Assembly: GCA_025055255.1 (NCBI GenBank)
Contig: JANWYI010000003.1
Coordinates: forward strand, 59,995-123,994
Source of the DNA: Anaerolineae bacterium
GTDB lineage: Bacteria > Chloroflexota > Anaerolineae > Aggregatilineales > UBA2796
DNA length: 64,000 bases
Direction of reading: 5' to 3'
The translations under genes were made by a program, and so were the position numbers. Shown in pieces: positions 6,083 to 50,377 of this stretch. Each line of letters starts with the position of its first letter. The first letter of the stretch is position 1. The notes under the pieces were generated by a model. The model was not told the origin of the DNA. It ran no database searches and saw nothing but the letters and a program-made list of their open reading frames with translations.

Positions 6083-7783
6083 ATGCTTTCTGACCTTGCC
6101 ATTGCACAGCGCGCCGCTCTGAAGCACATCCATGAGATCGCTGAGCAGATGGGCTTGGCGCCCGACGACCTCGACTTGTATGGCAGTCCTTACGTTGCCA
6201 AGTTGCGCCTTGAGGCGCTTGAGAAACTGAAAGATCGTCCTAATGGACGCTATGTTGACGTGACAGCGATCACGCCGACGCCACTCGGCGAAGGCAAGAC
6301 GACCACAGCCGTCGGCTTAGCGCAGGCGATGAAACACATTGGCAAACGCGCTATTGTCACGCTGCGGCAGCCGTCACAAGGTCCAACTTTCGGCATCAAA
6401 GGCGGCGCTGCTGGCGGCGGCTACGCGCAAGTTGTGCCAATGGAGACGTTCAACCTGCACTTGACGGGCGACATTCACGCTGTCAGCGCCGCAAATAATC
6501 TCTTGGCTGCTATGCTGGACAATAAGCTGCTGCGCGGGAATCCGTTGCGCATTGACGTGGACAGCATCACTTGGAAGCGCGTTGTGGACGTGAACGACCG
6601 CGCGCTGCGGCGCGTCATCGTCGGCTTAGGCGGCAAGCAGGAAGGTGGCGTGATCCGTGAGACAGGCTTTGACATCGCCGTTGCCAGCGAAGTCATGGCA
6701 ATTCTCGCTTTGACGACGTCGCTGCGCGACATGCGCGAGCGCCTCGGACGGATCGTGGTCGCTTTCACGGAAGATAAGCAGCCTGTCACAGCTGAGCAAA
6801 TCGGTGCGGCTGGCGCCATGGCTGTGCTGCTGAAAGAGGCAATTCGTCCAAACCTGCTGCAGACGCTTGAGAACACGCCAGCTATTGTCCATGCCGGACC
6901 GTTCGCCAACATTGCACATGGCAGCAGCAGCATCCTCGCTGACCAGTTCGCCATCAAGTGCGCCGATTACGTCATCACGGAAAGCGGCTTTGGCGCGGAT
7001 ATCGGCGCGGAGAAGTTTTTCAACATCAAATGCCGTTACAGCGGTCTCACGCCGAATGCGGCTGTGTTAGTGGTGACTGTGCGCGCGCTCAAAGCGCACA
7101 GCGGACGCTACCGCATTGTAGCAGGCAAACCATTGCCACCTGAGCTGCTAGAGCGTAACGTGGCAGATGTTGAGGCAGGCGCGGCAAACTTGATCAAGCA
7201 GCTTGAGAATGTGCGCTTACACGGCGTGACGCCTGTGGTGGCGATCAACGTCTTCGAGAGCGATCATCCTGATGAGCTTGAGGCAATTCGGCGCATCGCA
7301 ATCGAGAGCGGCGCGCTTGGCGCAGCGATGTGTCGCCATTTTACACAAGGCGGACGCGGCGCAATCGAACTGGCTGAGATGGTCGTGCATGCTGCCGAGA
7401 TGCCCAGTCAATTCCGCTTTCTCTACGAACTAGAGCAGCCGATCAAGGCGAAGATTGAGATCATTGCCAAGAAAATCTATGGCGCAGCGAATGTGAGCTA
7501 CGAGCCGCTCGCCGAGAGGCAAATTGCTATGTATGAGCGCGCAGGCTTGGGCAATTTGCCAATTTGCATGGCAAAGACGCACTTGAGCCTGAGCCACGAT
7601 CCGAACTTGCGCGGCGCGCCGCGCGGCTTCACTTTGCCAATCCGCGAAGTGCGCGCCAGCGTTGGCGCAGGCTTCATCTATCCAATCTGTGGCGAAATGC
7701 ACACCATGCCCGGCTTGCCAGAGCATCCTGCAGCTGAAAAAGTGGACATTGACGCCGACGGCAACGTTGTCGGTCTGTTCTGA
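6083..7783 (+). CDS. fhs: Formate--tetrahydrofolate ligase
   Basis: VTAITPTPLGEGKTTTAVGLAQAM, LRQPSQGPTFGIKGGAAGGGYAQVVPMETFNLHLTGDIHAV signatures. Confidence 0.97.
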   Translation: MLSDLAIAQRAALKHIHEIAEQMGLAPDDLDLYGSPYVAKLRLEALEKLKDRPNGRYVDVTAITPTPLGEGKTTTAVGLAQAMKHIGKRAIVTLRQPSQGPTFGIKGGAAGGGYAQVVPMETFNLHLTGDIHAVSAANNLLAAMLDNKLLRGNPLRIDVDSITWKRVVDVNDRALRRVIVGLGGKQEGGVIRETGFDIAVASEVMAILALTTSLRDMRERLGRIVVAFTEDKQPVTAEQIGAAGAMAVLLKEAIRPNLLQTLENTPAIVHAGPFANIAHGSSSILADQFAIKCADYVITESGFGADIGAEKFFNIKCRYSGLTPNAAVLVVTVRALKAHSGRYRIVAGKPLPPELLERNVADVEAGAANLIKQLENVRLHGVTPVVAINVFESDHPDELEAIRRIAIESGALGAAMCRHFTQGGRGAIELAEMVVHAAEMPSQFRFLYELEQPIKAKIEIIAKKIYGAANVSYEPLAERQIAMYERAGLGNLPICMAKTHLSLSHDPNLRGAPRGFTLPIREVRASVGAGFIYPICGEMHTMPGLPEHPAAEKVDIDADGNVVGLF

Positions 7784-7825: not shown

Positions 7826-7920
7826 GCAGCGCTGCCTTGCGCAAGCTACAATTTGCGCAGGTTTTGTGAGAGCAGAGATTATTTTTCGTTAATCTTGTCT
7901 TAACATTGAAAGGAAGTGCC

Positions 7921-10491
7921 ATGCGACGGCATACGCTGTACCTTTTGTTTGGCGTCTTCTTGTTCATGGCAAGCTGTGCTCCTGCGCCTGAGCCGACGCC
8001 GACTCGCACCAGCACTGCAACCGCCACCAACACGCCCGACGCAACTGAACGCGCCATAGCCGCGCGCAATGCCACTCAAACTGTGATCGCGCAGCAGAAC
8101 GCAATTGCTACAAATATTGCTGCTACTCAGTTTGCCATCAATCCGCCAACTGCCACGCCGACTGATACTGAGACGCCTACAGCTACGCCGACCGACACGC
8201 CAACTAGCACGCCGACTTTCACACCTACGCATACTCCAACGCCCACCTTCACGCCGACCGCTACACCAAGCGCCACGCACACGCCAACTGCCACCAACAC
8301 GCCGACTGCTACGAACACAGCCACTGCCACGAACACAGCTACCGCGACCAACACAGCGACTGCCACGCCCACGCCTAACCTGCAAGCGACTGCTGAGGCA
8401 TTGGCTGGAGAAATTGCTCAGGCGACGCTTGGCGCTCAACCGACGGCTACGCCCATCGTAGTGACTGTCGTGGTGACCGCGCCGCCTGAAGGTACGCCGA
8501 TCATTGCGCCTGTTGTGCCGCCTGACCTGCCGCTCACGCTGACTGCAATCGCCAATTTCGAGCTGACGCGCCGCGCCTTTGAACAGACAGCTACTGCTGT
8601 GCGCGCTATCACGCTCACGCCGACTGCCACGCCAACGGCAACGCTCACAGCAACGGCGACAGATACTGCCACTGCCACGCGCACGCCTTCAGCAACGTCA
8701 ACGGCTACTGCCACCAACACAAGCACGGCAACAGCTACCAACACGGCTACACCAACGGCAACTCACACGCCTGATGCTACGCAGACCTTTGAGGCAGTTC
8801 TCAGCGCCTCACAGACTGCCCGCGCCGCTCAGCGTACGCTTGAGGCGATCATCGCTGCCACTGATCTCGCTCTCACACCTACGGCAACTTCCACAGCAAC
8901 GGCGACTGACACTGCCACGGCTACGGCAACCTTGACGCCGAGCGCCACACGCACGCCCACAGCGACCTTCACACCATCTCTCACGCCAACTTTCACGCCG
9001 ACTCGCACGCCGACTGCCACGCTGACAGCAACTTTCACGGCGACCGCAACAGATACTGCCACAGCCACGCTCACGCCTTCGGCGACCGCAACGGCGACCG
9101 CGACCAGCACCAACACGCCGACTGCCACACCTACAGCGACATTAACGGCGACGCATACGCCTAATGCTACGCAGACCTTTGAGGCAGTTCTCAGCGCCTC
9201 GCAGACTGCCCGCGCTGATCAGCGCACGCTTGAGGCGATCATCGCCGCCACTGATCTCGCTCTCACGCCTACGGCGACTTTCACGGCAACGGCAACAGCG
9301 ACCGCGACTGACACAGCGACTTTCACGCCAACAGCGACCTTCACAGCAACTGCCACGCGCACGCCCACAGCGACTTTCACTGCTAGTCCGACGCGCACGC
9401 CGACGTTAACTCGTACGCCGACTCTGACGCGCACGCCGACGCGCACGCGCACCATCACGCCGACGCGCACTGCCAGTCCGACGCGCACACCAACTGCCAC
9501 GCCAAATCTGACACAAACTCGCGCCGCTCAGCTTGAGCGGACTGCCACACAAGTCGCCTTTGACGCTGAGATCGCGCCGTTCTTCCGCGAGGCGCGCCTG
9601 ATTTTCGAAGAATCAGTCATCCGCTTGCCGCACAACGTCGGCGATGGCTTTATCAGCTCGCAGGAGCTGGTCTGCACGCCGAACTTCATCCTGAGCGCGC
9701 GTTTTTACACGCCGTATGATGACTTTGCATGGTCGCATGGCATCATTTTCCGTCGCACACGCGATCAGCAGTTCCGCTTGACGTTCAGTCAAGAAGGACA
9801 GTATGAGCTATCGCGCTTCTTCCGTCCGCAGCCTGATGCTCAGTTCACTTTTGAAGTCCTTGAGCGCAGCGCCATTCCCGGCGGCGTCAACCGTCGGCGC
9901 GACTCGTTCAACGACGTGCTGTTGGTTGCGCGCGGCGAGTTAGCGCTCTTCTATTTCAACAATCGCTTCATCGCTCAGCTGAATATCTCGCGCTTCCAAG
10001 AGGCAGGCTGCATCGAAGTTGCCACAGGTGTTTACGTCAACACTGAGCGTGACGGCTTCGCCACCTTTGTTGAGAACGTCAAGGTCTGGCGGCTGCCTTT
10101 CACGCCTGAGCTGACGCGCACCTTCGAGGCTGCTGTTGCCGCCACGCTGACTGCCCTGCCCTTCGAGCGACAGGTCGCTACAGCTGTAGCTGGCACGCTC
10201 ACACCATCTGCCACACACACGCCGACATCAACGCCGACACGCACGCCGACCGCGACTTTCACAGCCACGGCTACGCACACGCCGACCTTGACGCCGACAC
10301 GCACGCCGACTGCTACGTTTACGCCGACTCATACAGCGACCAACACGGCAACTTTCACGGCTACGCACACACCAACTTTGACGCCGACGCGCACGCCGTC
10401 TGCCACGTTCACAGCAACGGCGACCAACACAGTGACTTTCACAGCAACGGCTACGCACACGCCGACATCAACGCCGACTGCTACACCTTGA
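7921..10491 (+). CDS. Lipoprotein with long Thr/Pro/Ala-rich repeats and a central globular (jelly-roll/LamG-like?) domain
   Basis: [19 protein letters not shown] lipobox; long TATxTPTxT tracts; central block [42 protein letters not shown]...VWRLP. Confidence 0.85.
8768..8890 (+). repeat. Copy 1 of a near-identical coding module ([35 protein letters not shown])
   Basis: GCAGACCTTTGAGGCAGTTCTCAGCGCCTC at 8781 recurs at 9171, exactly 390 bp later. Confidence 0.85.
9158..9280 (+). repeat. Copy 2 of the module ([35 protein letters not shown])
   Basis: See copy 1; only a few mismatches over about 110 bp. Confidence 0.85.
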
Positions 10492-42839: not shown

Positions 42840-44285
42840 TCAGGTTTTGCGCTTGATCAGCGGAATTCGGATGCTCGGTCGCGTGTCGCGCATGGATTCA
42901 GGCACACTGCCAGTGTCCATGCGCGGCAATTGCACTGTGAAAGTGGAGCCTTTGCCTAGTTCGCTCTCTGCCCAGATGCGCCCATGATGTGCCTCGACAA
43001 TCCACTTGGCAATCGAAAGTCCTAGTCCTGCGCCGCCGATCTTGCGCTCACGCGCTTTGTCCACGCGGTAAAAGCGGTCAAAGATGTACGGCAGGTCTTC
43101 TTTAGGAATGCCGATGCCTGTATCTGTGACGCGGATGAAGGCATAGCTGCCTTCGGTTGTCAGACTGAGCGTTACCTCGCCGCCATCGGGCGTGTATTTG
43201 ATGGCGTTCGTCACAAGGTTTAACAAGACCTGCTTGAGCCGATCTGCATCGCCTTTGACGCGCACTGCCTCAGGCGGCTCAAGGCGCACTTTGACCGTCT
43301 CAGTCAGCACTTTGGCTTGCTTGTAGACCTCGATCACAAGCGTGTCAAGGTCAACTTCCTTTTCCTCTAGCGGTAGGCTGCCGCTATCCGCTTGTGCCAA
43401 CAGCAGCAAATCGCCTACGAGGCGCGTCATGCGCTTCAGCTCGCTTTCTATCGCCTCAAGCGACGCAGCGTTTATGCCGAAGCGCTTTATCAGATCGAGG
43501 TTGCCTTGCAAGGTGGTCAACGGCGTGCGCAGCTCATGCGAGACGTCGGCGACGAAACGGCGCTGCGTCTTAAATGAGCGCTCTAAGCGCTCAAGCGTCG
43601 TATTGAAGGTCATGATGAGCTGTCCCAGCTCGTCTGCTGGACCTTCGTACGGAATGCGTCGGCTCAGGTCGTTCGCGTCTGTGATCTGCTTGGCAGTCTG
43701 GTTGATCATCTCAAGCGGCTGCAGCACCTGCCCTGCCACAACCGAGCCGATCATGAAAGAGAGCAGCAGCGCTGCCAAGCCGACGCCAAGCATAACGCGC
43801 AATAGGCGGTCTGTGGCAGCCTCAAGCGTTGTCAAGGGCGAGAGAATTTGCACAGTGCCGAGATAACGGTTATCAGCCGTGTAGATTGGCAACGTTGAGA
43901 CTAACGCGTGCGTCCTTTCAGCGGGCAAATAGATGTTGCGCGTGACCTCGACACGGCTGCTGCGATTTTCAGCGTCGAACGGCACGCTGTACTCAAGGTT
44001 CTCTGTGTTGAAAATCAGCGTGCCGTCATGCCGCCAGACCTGCACAGCGAAGGCGAAGTGAGGCATACGGGCGAGTCGCTTACGAATGGCAGGCTGCGAC
44101 TCAGCGTCGGTCAGCTCGTTGAGGCGGATGACATCAATCACTTGCTGCGCCACGAAGCGCATGCTCTCCTGTAGCTGTGTGTGCCACGCCCAGTTAAGCA
44201 AGCTGAACAGTGAGAGCCCGAAAATTACGATCACTACTGCCAGCAGCGCTGAGTAGATGAGCGTCAAGCGCGTGCGAATAGTCAT
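42840..44285 (-). CDS. Transmembrane sensor histidine kinase (HAMP-HisKA-HATPase)
   Basis: Two TM segments; FVADVSHELRTPLTTLQGNLDLI; DTGIGIPKEDLPYIFDRFYRVDKAR; GLGLSIAKWIVEAHHG. Confidence 0.95.
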   Translation of the reverse strand: MTIRTRLTLIYSALLAVVIVIFGLSLFSLLNWAWHTQLQESMRFVAQQVIDVIRLNELTDAESQPAIRKRLARMPHFAFAVQVWRHDGTLIFNTENLEYSVPFDAENRSSRVEVTRNIYLPAERTHALVSTLPIYTADNRYLGTVQILSPLTTLEAATDRLLRVMLGVGLAALLLSFMIGSVVAGQVLQPLEMINQTAKQITDANDLSRRIPYEGPADELGQLIMTFNTTLERLERSFKTQRRFVADVSHELRTPLTTLQGNLDLIKRFGINAASLEAIESELKRMTRLVGDLLLLAQADSGSLPLEEKEVDLDTLVIEVYKQAKVLTETVKVRLEPPEAVRVKGDADRLKQVLLNLVTNAIKYTPDGGEVTLSLTTEGSYAFIRVTDTGIGIPKEDLPYIFDRFYRVDKARERKIGGAGLGLSIAKWIVEAHHGRIWAESELGKGSTFTVQLPRMDTGSVPESMRDTRPSIRIPLIKRKT

Positions 44286-44376
44286 AAGGAAGGCTAAGCT
44301 CAACGTCCGTGAGTATCCTCCCTGATTCTAGTGCGCCGCGCACAGCGCTACCATGAGAAGTGCCTAAGCCGAGGCA

Positions 44377-45054
44377 CTACTCTTCACGCAACACATAGCC
44401 GACGCCACGCACTGTGTGCAGCAAGCGCGGCTCGCCTTCTGCCTCAGTCTTTTGGCGCAAGTAGCGCACATAGACCTCGATGATGTTGCTCTCGCCGCCA
44501 AAGTCGTAGTTCCAGACTCGGTCGAAGATCGTCTCACGAGTCAGCACTTGGCGCGGATGGCGCATGAACAGCTCCAGCAGCTCATATTCTTTGGCAGTCA
44601 AGTCAATTGCGCGACCGTTGCGCATAGCGCGATGCGTGCCAGTGTCCAGCTCTAGGTCGGCAAAGCGCAGGATTTCAGGCTTAGAGCTGACCGTTGAACG
44701 CCTGAAGAGCGCCCGAATGCGCGCCAACAGCTCATCAAACGAGAAAGGCTTGATCAGGTAATCATCGGCGCCGGCGTTCAAGCCTGCCACGCGATCCTGC
44801 ACCTCATCCTTCGCCGTCAACATCAGGATCGGCACGTTTGAAGCGTTGCGCAGGCGCTTGCAGACCTCAATGCCGTCAATGCCGGGCAACATCCAGTCTA
44901 GGATGACCAAGTCAGGCGGATTGTCGCGCGCAATTGCCAAGCCCGTGCGTCCATCATGCGCGACGTCCACACGGAAGCCTTCGAAGATCAAGCCGCGCTC
45001 GATAAATTGCGCAATGCGCTGCTCATCTTCAATGACCAGAATACGCTCTGCCAT
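44377..45054 (-). CDS. OmpR-family response regulator
   Basis: [23 protein letters not shown]...[13 protein letters not shown]...MLTAKDE; winged-helix [31 protein letters not shown]. Confidence 0.96.
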
Positions 45055-45058
45055 TCCT

Positions 45059-47131
45059 TCACCTCATCCATTCAAATTGGTCTAGGACGCGCACGTTGCG
45101 CAAGGCTACAGCACGTCCGTTCGTTGTGTCTAGTATGATCAGTTGATCAATTCTATCAGTTCTGCCGCGCACTTGCCCTATCGCAAAGCGCGCCGTCGGC
45201 GAAAACTGCGCTCTGGGCAGTGCAAAAGGCGGGCTTTCCACGCGCACTCGCTCTGGATCGCCTGTGGTGCTGACGCGCTGCACTGCTGCAGCCACTGACC
45301 AACCGACATGCCGCCAAAAGACGACTGGCTGCTCTGCAAGGCGAGCTGCTGCGCCAATTGGCTGCACGTTCAGAATCGGATACGCTGAACGCGCCAACAA
45401 AGTTTCAGCCTGACCGTCAAAGGCGCTCAGCAGCCATTGATCGCCTTCGCGCTTGACGAAAAGCAGCGCATTCAGGCTCCAAGTCGCTAATTCAGCGCGA
45501 AAGTTCAGCAGGCGCCAGCCGCCTTCTGCCATCGGTGCAACCGCAAATTCGTAGCTGCCGTCATTTAGCTTGGCGCGCAGCAACAGAGAGCGTCCGTTGG
45601 CGCTGAAGCGCACGAAGTCATATGTCCGCTCTGTAGTGCTAGTGGCAATGGTCAATGGCTGCGGCAAGAGCGCGCCGTTGCTCGGCAGCTCAAGGACATA
45701 CGCGCCGTCTGTGTCCACAAAGGCGATCAGGCGTCCATCAGCGCTCCAATCGAGGCTGGCGAGCGTCGTGCTGCGCAGAGTCGTCAACAAGCGCGACTCT
45801 GGCACGTTCGGCAAGCTAGGCAGCGCAGGAGTCGGCGTGCTGCGCCTAGGCAATGGCGTCGGCGTGGCAGCGGCACGCTCAGCGGCGCTCAGAGCAGGCA
45901 GAATGGCTATGTTCTGTCCGCTAATGACCGCCATTTGCCGCTGATCAGGGCTGAGCGCAAAGGCGCGGACGCCTTCGGGCAAGCGTGAGAGCTGCTCAGC
46001 GGCGCGCTCGCCATCACTAAACAGGCGCCACACTTGTGGCACTTCATCATCTTGGACACGATAGGGCGCGTCGCTTGCTTGATAGGCAAGGAAGTACAAG
46101 TCAGCGTCAAGGGCAAGATTCGAGACGCGCTGATAGACTGGCACTGCCCAAGCTATGCTCTGGACGCGCTGCAGCGGCAAGGCGTCTTCGACACCTGACT
46201 CTGGCAGGACGACAATCGGCGTGCCGCTTGTGATGTAGGTCAGACGGCTTCCGTTGCCGAGCCACGTCATCGCTATGTCCACGCGCCGTTCGGCGAACGG
46301 CGCTGCTGTGCCGTCGCCGCTGATGCTGACCAAAATGCCTTCAGGCGTGTTGCCGACGCGCTGCATGGCGCGCACTGTGCCGTCATAGGCACTAGTCAGG
46401 CGCGTGAAGACGTTCTCAGGCTTGCGCCATGCCTCAGCCAGAAATGCGCGCTCAGCTGTCTCGATCACATTTAAGCGCAGCAAGCCGCCGCTGATCGGCG
46501 CGAGGATCAGGCTGTTATCGTCTAGCCAAGCGGCGTCGCTCGGCTCGTCAAAGCTGCCGAGTCGCGCTAAGCCGCGCCGTATGCCTTCCTCTGTTGTCAC
46601 TCTGAAGACTGTCCAGCCGCCTAGATGATCCTGCGCCGCCAATCGACTGCCAAACGGCGAAAAGCGCAAGTTCACGTATTGGCGCGCCGTGTCGGAGACG
46701 CGCAACGGCGCGCCGCTCGGCGTCGGCAAGGCGATTTGCAAGCCATCAGCGGTTAGATAGGCGAGCGTCACGCCATCAGGCGACCAAGCGAGGCTGTGCG
46801 CATCGCGTGGCAAGAGCGCAGGCAGGAAAGCATTCTCAGCGATCACAATCGGACGCGGATCGTCCAATGCAGCGATCAAGACGCGACCGTCTTCCGTGCG
46901 ATAAACGAATGCATCAGCAGCAGGTGAGAGCGCAAAGGCGACGACGCGATCATCGCGCGGCGTCAAAAAGCGCGGCGCCGCTGTGCGCACGTCATAGCAG
47001 ACAACGCGCGCAGCGCTCAAGGCGCAGATCGGCGCGGGCAAGATGTAGCGCTCAGCGGTCTGAGCGTGTGCTGTGGCGCTGAGCGCTGTGCTGAGAAAGA
47101 CGGAGAGCGCGAAAATCAGGCGGCGCGTCAT
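45059..47131 (-). CDS. Secreted TolB/WD40-like beta-propeller protein
   Basis: Signal peptide [24 protein letters not shown]; repeated [15 protein letters not shown] / [15 protein letters not shown] / [13 protein letters not shown] blades. Confidence 0.8.
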
Positions 47132-48504
47132 TTAGTCTGCGGCGTCGGCTTACTAGGAACAAGTGGTTTTAGACTATTGATGAGCTTATCTACCTTCTGT
47201 TTAATTTTTTCAGCGCCAAGAACTTGCTTGCGATGCCCTAGATGTGCTAAGTCGTTGCGCAGATCGCGTAGTTCACTCCAAGCGTTGCTTAGAGCAGCTG
47301 TAGCACCTAAGCGTACTTCAAGAGTGGGAATGCCGATAACAGTTCGGAAGGCTTCAGGTAGCGCGTTGAGCTTTTGAGCTAGTTCAGCGACTAACTTGGA
47401 GATGTCGCTAATCTCATCACTTGCTTTGGAGGCGCTATTAAGCTGCCGTGAGACCTCCTCGCGCAGATCGTCATCCTCAAAGATTTCTTTGGTACTCTTG
47501 CCGCGATATTCGGGCGCTCGGCTCATCACATAAGAGATGACCCACTCGCGCAGTAATAAGCCTGCATGGATATAAAATTCGTTCTTATGATACCACTCAA
47601 TCAGCCTAAATTCTGCAGCTAGTCGCTCATTTATGTCTTGCTCGTCTTGGAGCTGGAAATCCTCCATCTGTTTCAAGACCTTGTCAATCTGACTGACAAA
47701 CGGCTTCTCCCAGCGCTCAGCTGAAGGACGCACTTCGTCGGCAAGACGGCGTATTTCAGCCACTGGCTCGTCAATATCGCGCAAACGACCTAGTTCAATA
47801 GCATCCATCAGTAGGCGCATATTTTTAGCGAGCGGCGCGAGCGGCAAGCGCGCTTTACCTGTCACAGCACCTGCTTTGTAAAGTGCTGCTTGACGCGCTT
47901 GGAGCAAGTCTGCCATTTGCCGTAAGTTGCCGCTGCGCTTAAAAGCATCAACCGCATTTGCCCACTCAAAGAGCGTGAGCATCGGCGTCAGATCAACCAC
48001 TTGAGCAACCTTATCTTTGTCTATAAAAGCGCCATAGTAGACATTGGCGAGATCGAACTCGCCTGAGACCTCAAAGTAAGCACAGGCTAAGAGCATCACT
48101 TGTGGCAATGAGCGGAATCCATGAGTGATATCAAGTGTGACAGTTGCCTCTTGCGGCACGTGCTCACCAATTTTGTCAAAGATTGCCCATAGCTCAGCCT
48201 CATCTTGCCCATCTGGGATATCTACTTCAGTGATGCTAATGCCGCGCTCTTCGAGCAGCCCTTTCAGTCCTTGTTCTTCAGCGTTACCCTGCCAGTTCGG
48301 ATGATCTTTAGCGCCTGCAGTGAGCAGCACCACTGCCTGTTCAACAGGCTTACCTTTTTCTTTCAAAAAATCACAGAGCAGAGCTGAGAAAAACTTGCCC
48401 TCGCGCGGCTGCTCTGAGTCAAACTGGTACTTGGTAGAGAAATAAGACACCTTCTCCTTAGAAGGCGCGGCGCCTATCGTTGTCACAAGGACATGCCTAC
48501 TCAC
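47128..48504 (-). CDS. CARF-HEPN protein, Csx2/TM1812 family (predicted cyclic-oligoadenylate-regulated ribonuclease)
   Basis: GTG start; VLVTTIGAA..., QAVVLLTAGAKDHPNWQG, IPDGQDEAELWAIFDKI, TVTLDITHGFRSLPQVMLL (CARF family signature); C-terminal LRDLRNDLAHLGH contains HEPN Rx4H. Confidence 0.88.
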   Translation of the reverse strand: MSRHVLVTTIGAAPSKEKVSYFSTKYQFDSEQPREGKFFSALLCDFLKEKGKPVEQAVVLLTAGAKDHPNWQGNAEEQGLKGLLEERGISITEVDIPDGQDEAELWAIFDKIGEHVPQEATVTLDITHGFRSLPQVMLLACAYFEVSGEFDLANVYYGAFIDKDKVAQVVDLTPMLTLFEWANAVDAFKRSGNLRQMADLLQARQAALYKAGAVTGKARLPLAPLAKNMRLLMDAIELGRLRDIDEPVAEIRRLADEVRPSAERWEKPFVSQIDKVLKQMEDFQLQDEQDINERLAAEFRLIEWYHKNEFYIHAGLLLREWVISYVMSRAPEYRGKSTKEIFEDDDLREEVSRQLNSASKASDEISDISKLVAELAQKLNALPEAFRTVIGIPTLEVRLGATAALSNAWSELRDLRNDLAHLGHRKQVLGAEKIKQKVDKLINSLKPLVPSKPTPQTK

Positions 48505-48545: not shown

Positions 48546-48573
48546 ATCTTACCGCATTTCTGTAGCCCTGCGG

Positions 48574-48586: not shown

Positions 48587-50377
48587 ATGAATCTGTCAGC
48601 CAATCCCTATGCGCCTGAGCAGCCGTGCAGCGACCCTGAACGTTTCTTCGGGCGCGCCGAGACCTTCGCCTTCCTGCGTCAAGCGCTGCACAGCGAGCAA
48701 ACACCGATCCTGATCGGCGGACGCGGCATGGGCAAGACCTCTGTGTTGCTGCAATTGCCGTTTCAGCTTGAGGCGCGCTATCTGACCGCATACCTTGACC
48801 TTGCTGAGCTGCGTCACACATACAGCCTGAGCGCGTTCGCCGTTGCGCTAATCCAGACGGCGCGCCAAGCGCTACGAACAGCAGAGCCGTCGCTCTACCT
48901 GCCCGACGTGCCTGAGACACAAGATGCGGCTGAGCTGTGGCGCTGGTTCGCTAAAACGCACTTGACGCCGATCTTCGATGTCATGCGCCGCTTTCAGCGC
49001 CTGATCTACTGCTTTGACAATGCACAGCATCTGCTGGACGCTGTGCAGCGCGGCGACTTGCCGTCTGACCTGATCGACTCGCTAGGCGCGCTGTGCCGTG
49101 AGGAAAAGCGTATCGGTATTGTCTTCACTTTTGACGCCGCTGCTGAGCCGCGCCTCGCTAGTTATGCGCTGCTTGCTGAGCCGCTCAATCAGCATCGTTT
49201 GCCGCCATTGAGCGACGCTGAGGCTCGGCAGCTGATCACGCAACCTTGCGCCTCTTTTTACGCGCTCTCTGATGACGTTGTAGGCGCGCTGCAGGCTTAC
49301 AGTGGCGGACAGCCATATCTCTTGCAATGGCTGTGCGCCTTGCTGTGGGAAAGAGCTGCAGCGCGCAACTTCGCCGCGCCTGATCGCAACGACGTGAGCG
49401 CGATCTTGCCGCGTGCGCTGCAGGTCTGCAGCGCGCTGTTCGATTCGCTCTGGCAGAATGCCACACCAAGCGAACAAGCCGCTCTGATAGCGCTGACACA
49501 AGCGCGGCGCGGCGCGCCTGCAACGCTAGAAGAGCTGCACACATGGCTGATTCATGAGAGCGAGGACGCGCCGCATATGGTGACGCTCGCAGCGGCGCTG
49601 CGCAGCTTGGAGTATCGCGGCGCCGTGCGCAGCGCGCCCGAGTCGGCTTATGCGCTCAGCAGCGGCTTGCTCTATCTGTGGCTGCAAGCTAAGGCTGAGC
49701 TGCCAAGCGCGCCTCTCAACGTTGAGCACACTTCAGTGCGCCGCGCTGCGCTGCCAATCGCGCTTATCGCCATTGCCTCAGCAAGCATTGCCTTGCTAGT
49801 TGCTGCGTTGACCAGTCATCTATCCTCTGGCGCCGCAACCTTGCAGCCGACACACACACTAGCGCTGAATCTGGAAGGCACGCAGCGCGCGCTATCGCTC
49901 ACACAGACCTTCCAAGCCTTGCCAACCAATACGCCAACTGCCACGTTGACTTTCACGGCGTCGCCGACGCGCACGTCCACTGTCACAGCTACAGCATCGC
50001 CGACGCGCACGTTCACTGTCACAGCTACAGCGTCGCCGACGCGTACGTTCACTGCCACGCCGACTTTCACAGCGTCGCCGACGCGCACGTTCACTGCCAC
50101 GCCAACTTTCACAGCGTCGCCAACACGCACGTTTACCGTCACATCAACTTTCACAGCGTCGCCGACGCGCGCGTTCACTGCCACAGCCGCAGCAACTCTG
50201 ACCGCTACTGACACGCTCACTCCGAGCTTGACAGCTACTTTCACAGCGACGCCGAGTCAAACGTTTATGCCGACTGCGACCATCACGCCAAGTTCGACGC
50301 AAACGCATACCGCCACAGCGACGCCAACGCGCGCTGTCATGCCAAGCGCAACATCTACGGCTTTGCCGCCATTTTGA
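48587..50377 (+). CDS. AAA/STAND-like ATPase with one TM helix and extracytoplasmic Thr/Pro-rich stalk
   Basis: NPYAPEQPCSDPERFFGRAETFAFL...PILIGGRGMGKTSVLLQLPF (Walker A); RLIYCFDNAQHLL (atypical Walker B); TM IALIAIASASIALLVAAL; TATxTxSPTRTFT tail. Confidence 0.85.
   Translation: MNLSANPYAPEQPCSDPERFFGRAETFAFLRQALHSEQTPILIGGRGMGKTSVLLQLPFQLEARYLTAYLDLAELRHTYSLSAFAVALIQTARQALRTAEPSLYLPDVPETQDAAELWRWFAKTHLTPIFDVMRRFQRLIYCFDNAQHLLDAVQRGDLPSDLIDSLGALCREEKRIGIVFTFDAAAEPRLASYALLAEPLNQHRLPPLSDAEARQLITQPCASFYALSDDVVGALQAYSGGQPYLLQWLCALLWERAAARNFAAPDRNDVSAILPRALQVCSALFDSLWQNATPSEQAALIALTQARRGAPATLEELHTWLIHESEDAPHMVTLAAALRSLEYRGAVRSAPESAYALSSGLLYLWLQAKAELPSAPLNVEHTSVRRAALPIALIAIASASIALLVAALTSHLSSGAATLQPTHTLALNLEGTQRALSLTQTFQALPTNTPTATLTFTASPTRTSTVTATASPTRTFTVTATASPTRTFTATPTFTASPTRTFTATPTFTASPTRTFTVTSTFTASPTRAFTATAAATLTATDTLTPSLTATFTATPSQTFMPTATITPSSTQTHTATATPTRAVMPSATSTALPPF
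49958..50195 (+). repeat. Tandem 36/42-bp coding repeats (ASPTRTFTATPTFT units)
   Basis: Six consecutive units starting with ASPTR; DNA core GCGTCGCCGACGCGCACGTTCACTG. Confidence 0.88.

Follow-up and report, generated by a model that had tools for sequence, protein, structure and literature searches.

A csx1 gene at the head of a propeller and two-component operon in a Chloroflexota genus, apart from the type III-B CRISPR locus of the same genome

Hoikkala et al. (2024, PMC11229360) define the Csx1 family as cA4-responsive and report 133 cyclase-positive type III loci that lack an effector, proposing that such loci activate effectors from other places in the genome. Csx15 belongs to a family that binds cA4, either as a sponge or as a ring nuclease (PMC13148439). 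Effectors that lie outside type III loci are a debated point, for which the genus described here is a natural test. On the side of envelope signaling, MtrAB-LpqB is an actinobacterial three-component system studied in PMC10714768. The literature that we searched, with most subscription journals outside its scope, held no description of a Csx1 in a two-component operon. Here, we describe such an arrangement in a stretch of 64,000 nucleotides (the window), which comprises bases 59995 to 123994 of contig C164, at the end of this 124-kb contig, from a 3.6-Mb, 230-contig Chloroflexota MAG (G000).

Gene layout and identity of the window Csx1

Four genes on the minus strand make up the locus. The first, csx1 (positions 47128 to 48504), has a GTG start and encodes a CARF-HEPN protein of 458 amino acids. 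It is followed by the gene for a beta-propeller-like, secreted protein (45059 to 47131; 690 amino acids) with an apparent N-terminal signal peptide and PD40 matches over the gathering cutoff, by an OmpR/PhoB-type response regulator (44377 to 45054; 225 amino acids) with Response_reg and Trans_reg_C domains, and by a HAMP-HisKA-HATPase_c histidine kinase (42840 to 44303). The preliminary description had reported these genes from the sequence, and they exist as it placed them, with an ATGA overlap of the csx1 stop and the propeller ATG (47128 to 47131, minus strand) and 4 nucleotides between the propeller stop and the regulator start; its 91-nucleotide gap between regulator and kinase is reproduced if the kinase starts at an alternative ATG at 44285. 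Divergent from csx1, an nSTAND/AAA ATPase gene on the plus strand (48587 to 50377; PF20703, 8.8e-10) marks the conserved site. This gene and another in the window (7906 to 10491) end in long Thr/Pro-rich tails derived from ACGCC-type repeats. Most of the weak hits in the homology search are matches to tails of this kind, so these are common in these genomes.

The window itself is free of CRISPR components, as had been noted before. PADLOC identified no cas gene among ten other window proteins (one generic protein kinase match), the only repeats found were coding low-complexity repeats rather than an array, and Cas10 had no match on the window contig, the sole Cas10 match of the genome being on another contig. 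None of the RNA families sought in the window was found.

Profile, motif, and fold evidence agree that the window protein is a bona fide Csx1, as the CARF-HEPN assignment had proposed. TIGR02221 matches with an N-terminal CARF domain (96.3 bits, cutoff 76.25; 2.5e-27), TIGR02549, which carries the DxTHG motif, matches at 28.4 bits (cutoff 21), and the PADLOC model PDLC01032 for Csx1/Csm6 CARF-HEPN proteins covers residues 3 to 449 (4e-84). Across 30 aligned relatives, D125, T127, and R131 of the CARF motif DITHGFR (residues 125 to 131; positions 48112 to 48132, minus strand) are invariant and H128 is nearly so; R416, N417, and H421 of the HEPN R-x4-H motif RNDLAH (residues 416 to 421; 47242 to 47259, minus strand) are invariant as well. 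An AlphaFold2 model gives a confident CARF-HEPN fold (pLDDT 88.7), for which the top Foldseek match is the cA4-bound structure of Marinitoga Csx1-Crn2 (8y6z; E 7e-18), with Sulfolobus islandicus Csx1 and Thermus thermophilus Csm6 among the further best PDB matches. By these features, we infer an RNase activity that is activated by cyclic oligoadenylate. The likely messenger is cA4, because the family is cA4-responsive (PMC11229360), the nearest structure is cA4 bound, and Csx15 occurs in these loci.

Csx1 relatives were searched in 84,980 species genomes, which gave 355 stretches, from which the best 80 loci were kept; two of these belong to the same genus (G002 and G004), and all counts use the other 78. 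Among these best loci, type III effector genes occur near csx1 in 62 of 78 and cas10 in 51, rising to 68 when csx15, other CARF genes, or arrays are also counted. For the loci of at least 19 kb, which have full flanks, the figure for type III genes is 27 of 30. The general statement that Csx2/TM1812-type proteins are usually type III effectors is thus borne out by the 62 of 78 among the best 80 of 355. No type III genes adjoin the window csx1; such a neighborhood is usual among its relatives and not defining for them. Phylogenetically, the window Csx1 and those of G002 and G004 form a 100/100 clade on a long stem, and this clade groups (96/93) with other Chloroflexota Csx1 proteins, two of which adjoin csx15 and arrays. 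Because of the long branch, the ligand or activity of the window clade could have changed.

A type III-B system elsewhere in the genome

On contig C180 of the same genome, one operon encodes a CARF-HTH protein, Cmr1, Cas10, Cmr3, Cmr4, Cmr5, and Cmr6. The Cas10 has a GGDD motif and no recognizable HD domain, and by this motif it is probably an active cyclase. Two CRISPR arrays with a 37-nucleotide repeat (GTTGCAACCGTGAACGACCCGTTGAGGGTATTGAAAC) lie 5 to 12 kb downstream of the cmr operon, so that the genome carries the parts of a type III system that produces cyclic oligoadenylate (cmr1, cas10 with GGDD, cmr3 to cmr6, and arrays). The window csx1 had been described as an orphan; the complete-looking III-B operon and arrays found by searching the whole genome for Cas10, Cmr proteins, and arrays overturn this, and a CARF protein in a genome without CRISPR is ruled out. 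Whether C180 is a binning contaminant was considered and judged unlikely, given its composition (tetranucleotide correlation of 0.971 with the window contig) and synteny, its non-CRISPR flanking genes being syntenic in G001 and G003 at 81 to 94% identity. At the heads of the arrays, stretches of 283 and 112 nucleotides are repeated at 92 to 94% (locus L009 of C180, 11137 to 11523 and 18673 to 19057), which suggests duplicated leaders. The C-terminal part of cmr6 on C180 contains a run of N (L009, about 6280 to 6390), and cmr6 is therefore not readable through at that point.

Contig C180 begins mid-gene, its first 34 codons being a HEPN tail with RNEIAHAG, and a profile search found the matching Csx1 N terminus immediately after csx15, where contig C207 ends. 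It is plausible that the III-B locus runs from C207 into C180, with csx15 and a second csx1 that is split by the contig gap, since csx15 and a CARF7 gene precede the CARF-HTH gene and cmr1 to cmr6 in G002 and G004 too. The CARF7-type effector of those two species was not found in the window genome. The idea that the window Csx1 is the sole nuclease effector of the III-B system was dropped after the HEPN tail and the Csx1 start had been found; as the III-B locus appears to own a local Csx1, it can be explained without the window copy. In G004, a second type III module with a short Cas10 and RAMP genes, III-A/D-like (L076, C19, 553 to 8327), lies directly behind the III-B operon, and the CARF-HTH tail is duplicated where the two meet (8327 to 8536).

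Conserved position and shared loss of csx1 within the genus

Three species (G000, G002, and G004) have csx1 together with Cas10 and two (G001 and G003) have neither, a co-occurrence that rests on the five species of the genus and for which one loss common to G001 and G003 is compatible with the tree. Wherever csx1 is present in the genus, it lies between the nSTAND and propeller genes, whereas the nSTAND gene stands directly beside the propeller gene in G001 and in a genome of another genus (G008). The order csx1-propeller-regulator-kinase is kept in all three csx1-bearing species, confirming at the genus level the conservation that had been proposed as a check; recurrence in the two other species makes the linkage more than chance. 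The csx1 and propeller genes show start/stop overlaps in two of the three species, and the junction reads TGATG where csx1 ends in G002, as it does in a relic in G001, compared with ATGA in the window. G004 also encodes a second Csx1, about 30% identical, across the nSTAND gene and on its strand (L012, C24, 7686 to 8957). The two csx1 genes are about 2 kb apart, and the second is remote from the cas loci of that genome.

Relics of both losses remain in a single genome, G001. The csx1 relic aligns through the -10 element, the start codon, and eight codons (MSEQAKPH), after which homology to G002 and to G004 stops at an identical base; a TGATG junction then ends the short reading frame. At the site where G002 has its III-B operon, between LytR-CpsA-Psr-like (LCP) and GlcD-like genes, G001 retains about 210 bp consisting of the 3' end of the CARF-HTH gene and the 5' end of cmr1, followed by sequence beyond cmr6; in G003, the LCP and GlcD-like genes are adjacent with nothing between. 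Since G004, the sister to the other four species (support 99.6/100), carries csx1 in this position too, the gene goes back to the ancestor of the genus. The placement of G004 is all that the genus tree resolves; a sister arrangement of G001 and G003 is not rejected (AU P value of up to 0.46), so the losses in these two species represent one or two events. The opposite polarity, in which csx1 was inserted behind a preexisting eight-codon start in several lineages, is unlikely because the gene would have had to insert at one and the same base more than once.

These relics also bear on the view that the window csx1 no longer has a function and is decaying, left over from a type III locus that once stood here. 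Its distance from cas genes, its long branch, and its loss in species without III-B would fit decay, but at about 50% identity among the three species, all Csx1 sequences retain full-length open frames and invariant CARF and HEPN residues. The G001 relic exemplifies what decay looks like here, unlike the intact genes, and we regard a functionless remnant as very improbable.

The operon predates the csx1 at its head. All five genus genomes have propeller, regulator, and kinase together, and other genera and families of the order have them with no csx1, the kinase lying elsewhere in some; kinase orthologues lie downstream of the regulator in G001 to G004, G007, G008, G034, and G060. Propeller orthologues share 68 to 76% identity within the genus and 31 to 41% in other genera of the family. 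The regulator is 93 to 94% identical within the genus and 79 to 90% across other genera of the order, and this conservation over the genus-to-order range marks a housekeeping system. AlphaFold2 from three sequences did not resolve the fold of the propeller protein (pLDDT 37), so the propeller label comes from the PD40 profile hits.

The preliminary description had suggested that the nuclease is wired to envelope sensing, as an output or partner controlled by the propeller protein and two-component system instead of CRISPR signaling. What speaks for such wiring is the gene order kept in three species despite Csx1 identity of about 50%, with overlaps in two. However, the propeller-regulator-kinase genes are present without csx1 in G001, G003, and all other genera and families examined, csx1 is absent exactly where Cas10 is absent, and no domain joins the CARF protein to the two-component system. 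Among the best 80 of 355 relative loci, Csx1 is type III linked elsewhere and never propeller linked (a propeller gene is near csx1 in 0 of the 78 outside the genus). With no positive evidence found for it, control by envelope sensing instead of CRISPR signaling is very improbable.

Upstream of csx1, a -10 element TAAGAT is predicted on the minus strand (48546 to 48551), 41 nucleotides before the GTG as read from the sequence; this region of the window (TGCGGTAAGAT) aligns with TGTGGTAAAAT in the csx1-less G001, GTGGTATAAT in G002, and GTGGTAGAAT in G004. A consensus promoter scan upstream of csx1 gave nothing useful and left the -10 element unreported, so the prediction draws on the comparative alignment only. 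As the csx1 promoter region lies directly before the propeller gene in G001, a single promoter probably serves the whole csx1-propeller-regulator-kinase unit. Together with the gene order, this shared region supports the operon-like arrangement that had been proposed.

That csx1 stays at the head of a two-component operon despite about 50% divergence leaves room for a functional reason. Csx1 could be a III-B effector whose position was selected because the envelope two-component system autoregulates the shared promoter, such that surface stress, for instance phage attack, would raise Csx1 and ready the cyclic oligoadenylate response in advance. The same upstream region before csx1 in G000, G002, and G004 and before the propeller gene in G001 would fit this, as would the position conserved in all csx1-bearing genus genomes, but the conservation is accounted for just as well by one insertion in an ancestor and vertical inheritance from then on, and no regulator binding site was identified. 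We consider selected coregulation unlikely, if clearly less so than envelope control of Csx1 without CRISPR. The stronger form, in which a CRISPR RNase activated by cyclic oligoadenylate was kept for the lifetime of the genus under the promoter of an envelope two-component system and surface stress prearms the type III response, is somewhat more doubtful again; if true, it would hardwire CRISPR signaling to envelope surveillance.

A probable effector encoded in trans, compared with known systems

The species without the CRISPR complex have also lost csx1, which makes the window gene most likely a remote arm of CRISPR and not an envelope-sensing device. Because csx1 is kept only with the Cas10 complex and the sensor operon does fine without csx1, a III-B RNase in trans is the simplest explanation. 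We therefore hold it to be quite likely, judging from gene content and comparison of genomes, that the window Csx1 is a III-B RNase activated by cyclic oligoadenylate, encoded in trans, and expressed from the promoter of a housekeeping operon. The Cmr complex with Cas10 would detect phage RNA, and the GGDD cyclase would then make cyclic oligoadenylate, most likely cA4. This would bind the CARF dimer of Csx1 and switch on HEPN R416-x4-H421, and the activated HEPN domain would cut RNA nonspecifically. A single insertion ahead of the radiation of the genus would have put the gene behind the promoter and in front of the first gene of the older propeller-regulator-kinase operon, with which it would be coexpressed; we infer cotranscription with this operon and a location owed to housekeeping expression. 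More generally, CARF genes in seemingly unrelated operons call for a check of the whole genome before they are called CRISPR independent.

The operon resembles MtrAB-LpqB in combining an OmpR-type regulator, a HAMP kinase, and an extracytoplasmic accessory protein and in being conserved across a whole higher taxon. It differs in its order (propeller-regulator-kinase), in scores below the cutoffs for MtrA against the regulator (230 bits, cutoff 300) and MtrB against the kinase (220 bits, cutoff 450), and in the lack of an LpqB-type family among the Pfam and NCBIfam matches of the propeller protein, which are limited to PD40 and generic propeller families. Csx1 itself belongs to a known kind, and what is unusual is where it lies in the genome. 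It is like known Csx1 proteins in its CARF DxTHGxR and HEPN R-x4-H motifs, its full-length profile match, and its Marinitoga and S. islandicus fold; it is unlike them in its length (458 amino acids versus about 400 to 430), with an extra helical insertion in the HEPN region, in lying on a contig apart from the cmr operon, and in heading a housekeeping two-component operon. The case agrees with the in-trans effector hypothesis (PMC11229360) in that the genome has a cyclase-positive type III locus by which a distant effector could be activated. It departs from that hypothesis in that the III-B locus seemingly has its own Csx1 while the window effector lies outside any type III locus, and it adds shared loss, an unlinked csx1 kept and lost with the Cas10 complex, as genetic evidence tying the window csx1 to III-B.
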